Of a stretch of 37,719 nt of DNA, positions 36,276 through 37,719 are shown piece after piece. The notes below the pieces were generated by a model. The model was not told the origin of the DNA, ran no database searches, and saw only the letters and a program-made list of their open reading frames with translations. Source of the stretch: an uncultured Pseudorhodobacter sp. (GTDB taxonomy: Bacteria > Pseudomonadota > Alphaproteobacteria > Rhodobacterales > Rhodobacteraceae); assembly GCA_913062925.1 (NCBI GenBank), contig CAJXWJ010000035.1:1-37719 (forward strand). Reading direction: 5' to 3'. Both the position numbers and the translations under genes were made by a program. Each line of letters begins with the position of its first letter. Within the stretch, counting starts at the first letter, position 1.

Positions 36276-36351
36276 GCCCTTATAGCTCAGCTGGTAGAGC
36301 ACCTGATTTGTAATCAGGGGGTCTCGGGTTCGAATCCTGATGGGGGCACCA
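36276..36351 (+). tRNA. tRNA-Thr (anticodon TGT), CCA encoded
   Basis: The acceptor stem pairs 36276-36282 with 36341-36347 (two G-T pairs). The D-loop is AGCTCAGCTGGTAGAGC, the anticodon TGT lies in CTGATTTGTAATCAG, the T-loop is GGTTCGAATCC, and CCA is encoded at 36349-36351. TGT reads ACA and related threonine codons. A recombinase element begins 16 bases after it, in keeping with tRNA 3' ends as integration targets. Confidence 0.97.
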
Positions 36352-36367: not shown

Positions 36368-36446
36368 AAGTCCAGCGCTTAGCTAAGCATCTGTTAATAC
36401 ACACATATTGCAACTTGCCTCAGCTTAGGCATCGATTTGTGTGGAC
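36368..36446 (+). repeat. Long inverted repeat, left copy
   Basis: This 79-base segment is the reverse complement of 37641-37719 with a single difference (T at 36371, where the other copy would give C). It ends four bases before the recombinase start codon. It contains a perfect 12-bp palindrome GCTTAGCTAAGC at 36377-36388 and an imperfect one, GCCTCAGCTTAGGC, at 36417-36430, with centres 41 bases apart. The repeat is at least 79 bp long, because the right copy is cut by the window end. Confidence 0.95.
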
Positions 36447-36450
36447 CAAA

Positions 36451-37638
36451 ATGCTGACCAAAAACATCCCTTATACGTTTAACCGTGGCGGTTACTTTTA
36501 CTTTTCGCGTCGTGTTCCATCAGACTTGCTGCATCATTATAGCTACCCCAGAATCGTGCAGGGGCTTCGTACCAAGTCGCAACAAACAGCTAAAACACGC
36601 GCTTTGGTTGCAGCTGCAAAACTCGATGAACGTTGGTCACAATTGCGCTTGGCACATGGCGATGTCTTTGGCGCTAAGCTGCAAAAAGTTGGCACTGAAG
36701 CTGCCCCGCATAGTCGCAGGTATAACGTTGAACCTCAGGTTGCTGAAGCGCTAGGGCCAACACTGGCTGAAGCCTTAAAGCTATATGTGACACAAAAGGG
36801 CAAAGGCCGTGGCAAGACGTTTCAAGCGGGGGCTGAGCGAGCTTGTTCTTACCTTATAGCTGCATGTGGGGTTAAACCTTTGACCAGCTATAGCAGAACA
36901 GATGCCCTGAAGTTTCGAGATTGGCTGATCGCAAAGGGACTTAGCGGCTCCAGTGTCACCCGTGTGATGTCGAGCCTGAAAGCTGTGATAAACTTTGCGA
37001 CTTCAGAACTGGCCTTAGAAACACGAAACCCTTTCATTGGCATTTATCATGATCGCAAAGCAGGTGTGCTAGATCGAAAGCCAATCCCGCTTATCAGCAT
37101 CCGTAAGATTCAAAGCCAATGCGTTAAAGGTGATGATGAAATGCGATGGCTTGCAGCTTTGGTCTCAGACACAGGAATGCGCCTTGCTGAAGCGACAGGA
37201 TTGCTGCGTGAAGACTTTGTGCATGTAGAAGGTGACTTACCATTTATCCGTATAATTCCATATACTTGGCGGACACTTAAGACTGAAAGCAGTAAACGAA
37301 ACGTACCATTAGTCGGCGCATCGCTTTGGGCTGCTAAACGTATCATGTCACAAGAGCCAGTCAGCCGCTTTGCTTTCCCAAGGTACAATAAAACTGCCAT
37401 CACAAATGCCAATTCAGCAAGTGCTGCCCTGAACAAATGGATGAAGCCGATGATACCCGCAGGGTGTTCCATGCATAGCTTTAGGCATTCCATGCGTGAC
37501 AGGCTCAGAGCAGTACAATGCCCTGCTGATATTGTTGATCAGATTGGAGGCTGGCAAACCAATGGTGTTGGGCATGGCTATGGGGAAGGCTACCCAATCG
37601 AGGTTCTGCATGAGTGGTTGTCAAAGGTAAGCCCTTGA
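36451..37638 (+). CDS. Tyrosine recombinase/phage-type integrase
   Basis: 395 residues. The N-terminal segment IPYTFNRGGYFYFSRRVP resembles the DUF6538-like start of many alphaproteobacterial integrases. A SAM-like core-binding domain spans about 100-190. The catalytic set is complete: Arg244 (DTGMRLAEATG), Lys277 (RTLKTESSKRN), His342 and Arg345 (HSFRH), Trp368 (GGWQT) and Tyr377 (GHGYGEGY). A longer in-frame TTG start at 36415 would lie inside the repeat and is not favoured. G+C is visibly lower than in the surrounding genes, indicating transfer. It is framed by inverted repeats 4 and 2 bases away. Confidence 0.93.
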   Translation: MLTKNIPYTFNRGGYFYFSRRVPSDLLHHYSYPRIVQGLRTKSQQTAKTRALVAAAKLDERWSQLRLAHGDVFGAKLQKVGTEAAPHSRRYNVEPQVAEALGPTLAEALKLYVTQKGKGRGKTFQAGAERACSYLIAACGVKPLTSYSRTDALKFRDWLIAKGLSGSSVTRVMSSLKAVINFATSELALETRNPFIGIYHDRKAGVLDRKPIPLISIRKIQSQCVKGDDEMRWLAALVSDTGMRLAEATGLLREDFVHVEGDLPFIRIIPYTWRTLKTESSKRNVPLVGASLWAAKRIMSQEPVSRFAFPRYNKTAITNANSASAALNKWMKPMIPAGCSMHSFRHSMRDRLRAVQCPADIVDQIGGWQTNGVGHGYGEGYPIEVLHEWLSKVSP

Positions 37639-37640
37639 GT

Positions 37641-37719
37641 GTCCACACAAATCGATGCCTAAGCTGAGGCAAGTTGCAATATGTGTGTATTAACAGATGC
37701 TTAGCTAAGCGCTGGGCTT
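37641..37719 (-). repeat. Long inverted repeat, right copy (cut by window end)
   Basis: Reverse complement of 36368-36446 at 78 of 79 positions, starting two bases after the recombinase stop codon. It carries the same 12-bp palindrome at 37699-37710. It continues to the last base given, so its true length is unknown. Confidence 0.95.

Follow-up and report, generated by a model that had tools for sequence, protein, structure and literature searches.

The DNA analysed here (the window) is the entire 37,719 nt contig C35 of a 3.15 Mb, 111-contig genome (G000) of an uncultured Pseudorhodobacter sp., and its right-hand end is probably (we would put it at about two in three) the tRNA-side end of an integrative island in which the integrase gene, int, lies between mirror-image attachment arms. 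A tRNA-Thr (TGT) gene, the integration target, was located by ARAGORN at 36276..36351 (+ strand). It is followed by a left inverted-repeat arm (36368..36446, +), which we read as the P arm of attL between tRNA and int, by int itself (36451..37638, +) and by a right arm (37641..37719, −), which we read as the P arm of a second, inverted site (attP2) that ends before its core. Direct comparison within the window showed the two 79 nt arms to be reverse complements with a single mismatch at 36371 (T, versus C in the inverted copy). The int ATG at 36451 is four bases past the left arm; the stop codon ends at 37638 and the right arm follows two bases on. A preliminary description had reported this repeat, its one mismatch and its spacing of two to four bases to the gene, and all coordinates were confirmed. 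It had also taken the mismatch as a sign of two real copies; the copies are real, as relatives share the frame, but the mismatch, 4 nt short of the contig end, counts for little as evidence. The right arm stops at 37719 because the contig ends there, so that 79 nt is a minimum arm length.

The int gene is intact, with an open frame of 395 residues that matches the Pfam families DUF6538 (N-terminal) and Phage_integrase; beyond these, two SAM-like domains were below the cut-off, and the protein is not of the Flp family. The R, K, HxxR, W and Y columns of tyrosine recombinases, which we take to be the catalytic residues, are invariant in an alignment of five sequences, and the integrase profile gave no match to solved structures at E 0.001. 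The gene adjoins the 3′ end of the tRNA-Thr gene and points away from it. Two GACCA motifs 12 nt apart (36444–36448 and 36456–36460, +) overlap the int start and are putative arm-type sites for Int. The last ∼15 nt of the tRNA-Thr gene would be the crossover core, a position taken from the relatives because the right arm ends before reaching its core. The opposite end of the contig (window 1–78) is likewise close behind the 3′ end of a tRNA gene, tRNA-Asn (4–78, − strand), as if another island had broken the assembly there.

Mirrored P arms are common among relatives of this gene. A second int in the same genome (contig C48), 60% identical in protein sequence and beside a tRNA-Ser (CGA) gene, is framed by its own arms of 98 nt (98% identical), and three more homologues in genomes of the same genus have arms of 105 nt (100%), 98 nt (100%) and 99 nt (99%). 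No second copy of the C48 P′ arm was found in G000. At the end of contig C33 of this genome (L009, 2220–2639) there is a third, truncated int copy with residues 3–88 matched, apparently a remnant, together with a P-arm match and a P′-like stretch. Scanning GTDB contigs with a protein profile yielded 182 relatives, of which the best 80 were used; these are apparently mostly from Rhodobacterales, both isolates and metagenome-assembled genomes, and the loci are partly non-independent, with some pairs closely related. In 69 of the 80 the attL arm recurs, inverted, downstream of int (66 of 77 without three contigs already used as alignment query rows). Among the 11 without one, three have less than 60 nt of sequence upstream, five have less than 650 nt downstream and one has 1.2 kb; the others are L074, with a broken int, and L099, in which int is intact and 10 kb downstream holds no inverted arm. 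A chance origin of the arms is excluded, since an inverted-repeat score of at least 25 within 500 nt of int was reached by 50 of 77 loci, whereas the highest score among 355 random control segments was 15.

Strong matches to the family (E 1e-80) occur in 20 of 394 genomes of the taxonomic family of the window, its own genome included. Thirty loci of DUF6538 integrases served as a further control; three proved to be family members and six had no alignable int, and inverted arms were found at none of the 21 evaluable loci, a weak comparison in which the downstream sequence was often too short. In G075 (C1:1160000–1219999, L143–L145) several islands are apparently stacked behind one tRNA-Ser; a second int copy 33 kb further on is 94% identical over 1.28 kb and has an inverted arm match of 107 nt (78.5%) about 2.5 kb downstream.

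Within an element the two P arms are close to identical. Over 74 loci (the 69 above, the window, C48, two G075 copies and one IMG/VR locus) the median identity is 100% and the mean 97.95%, with a minimum of 79.7% and 42 perfect pairs. The left arm often has an identity of only 45–85% to that of the nearest relative, which partly reflects different targets and arm lengths. The window arms are 98.7% alike, yet only 53% like the arms of the nearest relative, to which the int DNA is 74% identical.

In the relatives checked, the arms start inside the tRNA gene, the last ∼14–17 nt of which belong to the repeat, and end near the int start. Target tRNAs include those for Thr, Ser, Leu, Phe, Arg and Gly. 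A tRNA gene was found near int at 63 of the 80 loci (none was found at the other 17); in 62 of the 63 it is upstream on the same strand with int pointing away, and int flipped relative to its tRNA was seen at none of the 63. The one apparent flip, at locus L036, was rejected: it was judged by eye to be a full tRNA-Leu gene within the inverted site, because the DNA beyond the tRNA-Leu matches the P′ of G075. At L036 (1281–1600) this complete tRNA-Leu gene fills the usual ∼100 nt space between the core and the P′ arm motifs. Some int modules hold extra genes, and the inverted arm is then up to 3.8 kb away. In one subgroup (L083, L091, L100, L106 and L175) the inverted arm extends over ∼60 codons from the start of int, so that a truncated int start is repeated in inverted form.

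Motifs of the GACCA type (GACCA or GACCG) are paired, 12 nt apart, at the int start of many elements and recur ∼95–125 nt past the core on the other arm, again in many elements; from the sequences we infer that they are arm-type Int sites. A survey of 75 elements found 18 with no recognised motif on either side. Exactly two motifs stand at the start of int in 43 elements, and of these two the inverted site retains one in 29 elements, neither in ten and both in four; the remaining 18 of the 75 fall outside the groups of 18, 29 and ten. The window belongs to the ten, with no GACCA-type motif in its right-arm region. This incompleteness of the inverted site would explain why int faces away from the tRNA after integration, and attP2, short of motifs, may therefore be a poor substrate for Int.

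What lies beyond the right arm can be read from islands that are less truncated. The one in the single-contig genome G075 runs from tRNA-Ser through core, P and int, continues with P, core and P′ in inverted form and closes, after the cargo, with P′ and a direct core; its P′ repeat is 729 nt long (95.3%). The complete megaplasmid of Ruegeria sp. TM1040 has the same layout, with P arms of 85 nt (100%) and P′ arms of 1148 nt (100%); a BRO gene is annotated in both P′ arms and type I restriction genes lie between them. The longest P′ repeat is 3183 nt (100%) and the next at least 2316 nt (99.96%), its contig ending at the far core; others are 1053 nt (98.1%), 765 nt (96.9%) and 767 nt (98.3%), with shorter ones of 745 nt (99.1%) and 233 nt (95.7%). 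A far inverted P′ reaching the direct core is present in nine of 20 loci chosen for long downstream sequence and was not found in the other 11 within the sequence examined. L074 and L099, both lacking the inverted arm, were left out of the 20, as was G434_C2_139409 with its 438 nt inverted P′ repeats. Read from these integrated copies, the complete relatives appear to carry paired inverted sites within long inverted repeats that separate two unique regions. The preliminary description had listed paired arm and core sites at one end of an island among its readings, and this comes close to the arrangement in the relatives. For the island of the window itself, a search of its own assembly for attR matched the pattern only at the tRNA, the contig ending within the island, and the flank of a relative's empty site pointed to the interior of a different contig.

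The integrated form would read tRNA – core – P – int – inverted P – inverted core – inverted P′ – cargo – P′ – core – chromosome. Its two outermost cores, as direct repeats, would serve as ordinary attL and attR, and the inner core with its flanking P and P′ would be a second attachment site in the opposite direction. Int would excise the island by attL × attR recombination and, because both P and P′ are repeated in inverted orientation around the cores, the resulting circle would carry two head-to-head attP sites. These sites, inside repeats of ∼0.3–3.3 kb, would separate an int module from a cargo module. Reintegration would use the site at the beginning of int, the one with both arm-type motifs. 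An exchange between the two inverted sites, whether catalysed by Int or homologous within the long repeats, would flip the cargo relative to int, and such an inversion during replication would turn the circle into an amplifying double rolling circle.

Cargo orientation was compared between different elements and not inside one population. Two islands of one single-contig genome, G075_I and G075_2635348, are co-oriented on the int side over 2.2 kb (89.8%), and their cargo is reversed across 5.09 kb (89.6%), ending at the core. The cargo of L035 is oriented as in G075_2635348 and reversed with respect to G075_I (5.10 kb, 86.4%). Similarly, L091 and G434_C2_139409 have co-oriented int genes and 2.48 kb of reversed sequence (86.7%), and the gene for a 512-residue protein in L059 is reversed with respect to both G427 and L076 (about 72%). 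The pair L087 and L141, with ∼270 nt of reversed cargo and ∼60 nt beside the repeat, gives weak support for inversion because most of the reversed match is the P′ repeat itself. Four replication-type gene classes were followed, and each occurs in both orientations among the elements examined. Both inversion isomers thus occur among the relatives, across elements, and the opposite orientations of cargo relative to int argue that inversion happens. Cargo inversion is on this sequence evidence well supported, Int is its likely agent and inversion-driven amplification is a proposal. The invertible recombinase cassette of the preliminary description survives in part: it is the cargo that occurs either way round with respect to int, and int was not seen flipped relative to the tRNA at the 63 loci where one was found.

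The cargo genes are consistent with replication after excision. Among the cargo proteins are a P4-family primase (TIGR01613) and a protein that matches a DNA-primase PHROG and, below threshold, ResIII. A helicase-like cargo protein of 633 residues has a P-loop motif recognised by eye; the members of its family that were tested have no Pfam, PHROG or NCBIfam match, its structure model is poor (mean pLDDT 52.7) and profile comparison found no relation between the helicase-like and primase-like proteins. The 512-residue protein matches a PHROG of unknown function. HsdM/S/R genes are annotated in the TM1040 cargo and were recognised by eye in others, as were TPR-like proteins. Excised or encapsidated forms were looked for in sequence collections. 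A set of 50,697 phage records held no relative of int (E 1e-30), the TM1040 megaplasmid was the only one of 72,556 plasmid records with any (E 1e-60), and IMG/VR contained two int loci. The primase-like cargo was found neither in IMG/VR nor in the plasmid records. Relatives of the 633-residue protein lie near tRNA genes at L211 (13935–15560) and L210 (10001–11767), an Azospirillum plasmid and an IMG/VR contig; the stretches examined there hold no relative of int and no long inverted repeats.

Several cargoes encode primase-like or helicase-like proteins, and a use of the sites like that in the yeast 2-micron plasmid is for this reason the likeliest. We propose, at less than even odds, a widespread family of elements that form a double-attP circle, half of which is inverted by their own Int during replication to give double-rolling-circle amplification, and that integrate at tRNA genes and flip or exchange their cargo. 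A counterpoint is that attL × attP2 recombination would flip int relative to the tRNA, yet no such flip was seen. The 11 long loci in which no far P′ was found, the motif-poor inverted sites and locus L099 also weigh against the reading as a whole.

It is possible, although rather unlikely, that homologous recombination accounts for everything: an old duplication of the site, kept alike by gene conversion, with RecA-driven inversion of the cargo and no function. The P′ repeats of 0.2–3.2 kb would be ample substrates, and the inversion breakpoints lie within near-identical repeats, where they cannot be placed more finely. The P arms speak against this reading: eight of the 11 long loci that lack a far P′ still have pairs 97.7–100% identical, and the other three have pairs at 84.9–90.1%. 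The first 320 nt past the core of G075_I are perfect, its 34 differences falling in the distal P′, and this too argues against homologous recombination alone; G427 and G431 have the opposite pattern, with differences right next to the core, and in L076 they are spread over the whole of the first 460 nt. The recurrence of the inverted site in 69 of the 80 relatives also counts against homologous recombination alone.

Nearly the same low credit goes to natural cassette exchange, in which Int would swap whole cargo modules between elements through the inverted sites, as in engineered recombinase-mediated cassette exchange. The Ruegeria loci L040 and L041 would fit: they are 96% identical through int and ∼115 nt past the inner core and then mostly differ. 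They are, however, a single clear pair that ordinary recombination could also produce, and exchange by itself does not require near-perfect P arms.

An assembly or amplification chimera, folded back at the contig end, would account for a right arm that ends exactly where the contig does and for the many relatives whose contigs end within ∼800 nt of int, but it is very improbable, since the same structure is also seen far from contig ends, and in isolates, a single-contig genome and the complete replicon of TM1040, and a long P′ repeat would by itself be enough to interrupt short-read assembly at that point. Equally improbable is a minimal IS-like element, int plus terminal inverted repeats mobilised by a tyrosine recombinase: the window by itself has exactly this shape and the preliminary description had considered it, but in complete relatives it is the inverted core, P′ and cargo, and not host DNA, that follow the right arm, the arms include the 3′ end of the host's own tRNA, and neither unrelated host DNA on both sides nor independent copies were found. 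Elsewhere in the genome of the window the unit has only diverged partial matches, none of them full-length or near-identical.

The reading as a tRNA-side island end with mirrored attachment arms has consequences beyond this contig. A second site that is near-identical to the first and recurs in many genera argues for a function beyond the integrate-and-excise model. If inversion drives amplification, this would be a 2-micron-type mechanism in bacteria, through which small islands could attain copy numbers high enough to be useful in transfer. The long P′ repeats would explain why many assemblies, the window included, break just past int and hide the cargo with its restriction-modification systems. 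The paired inverted sites might also serve as natural cassette-exchange tools.

Tycheposons and similar integrative elements of the ocean target tRNA genes, use a tyrosine recombinase and carry replication genes and cargo. The present elements are like them in these respects, and we know of no mirrored double attP in them, a distinction drawn from their description as we know it. The fim switch and the Rci shufflon are invertible segments worked by tyrosine recombinases. PsrA is another such recombinase with an invertible segment (PMC7096588). Inversion between inverted sites is common to all of these; unlike them, the present sites would also serve integration, and the cargo has replication and restriction genes. 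Tyrosine recombinases that bind arm sites have likewise been described (PMC8138268). For the 2-micron plasmid, two accounts describe head-to-head FRT sites in 599 bp inverted repeats, two isomers, and amplification when inversion coincides with replication (PMC6594588, PMC3147054). The present elements resemble this Flp/FRT system in having a recombinase gene, head-to-head sites in long inverted repeats, two unique regions and isomers. They differ in being bacterial, in integrating at tRNA genes with attL, attR and arm-type motifs and in using a Phage_integrase/DUF6538 recombinase; the circle is deduced here from integrated copies and amplification is only proposed. A literature search by title and start of abstract found no islands with an inverted double attP, with incomplete coverage, so that a prior report is possible. 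In tRNA islands and P4-like satellites int lies beside the tRNA gene and points away from it, the core is the tRNA 3′ end and some cargoes include a primase. To our knowledge the standard island has one attP, without mirrored arms or a second inverted site. The present elements share with these islands and satellites the position of int, the tRNA-3′ core and the primase of some cargoes, and they are set apart by their mirrored arms and by having, beside int, another attachment site in inverted orientation: the integrase-island side is known, and the recurrent inverted second attachment site is new.
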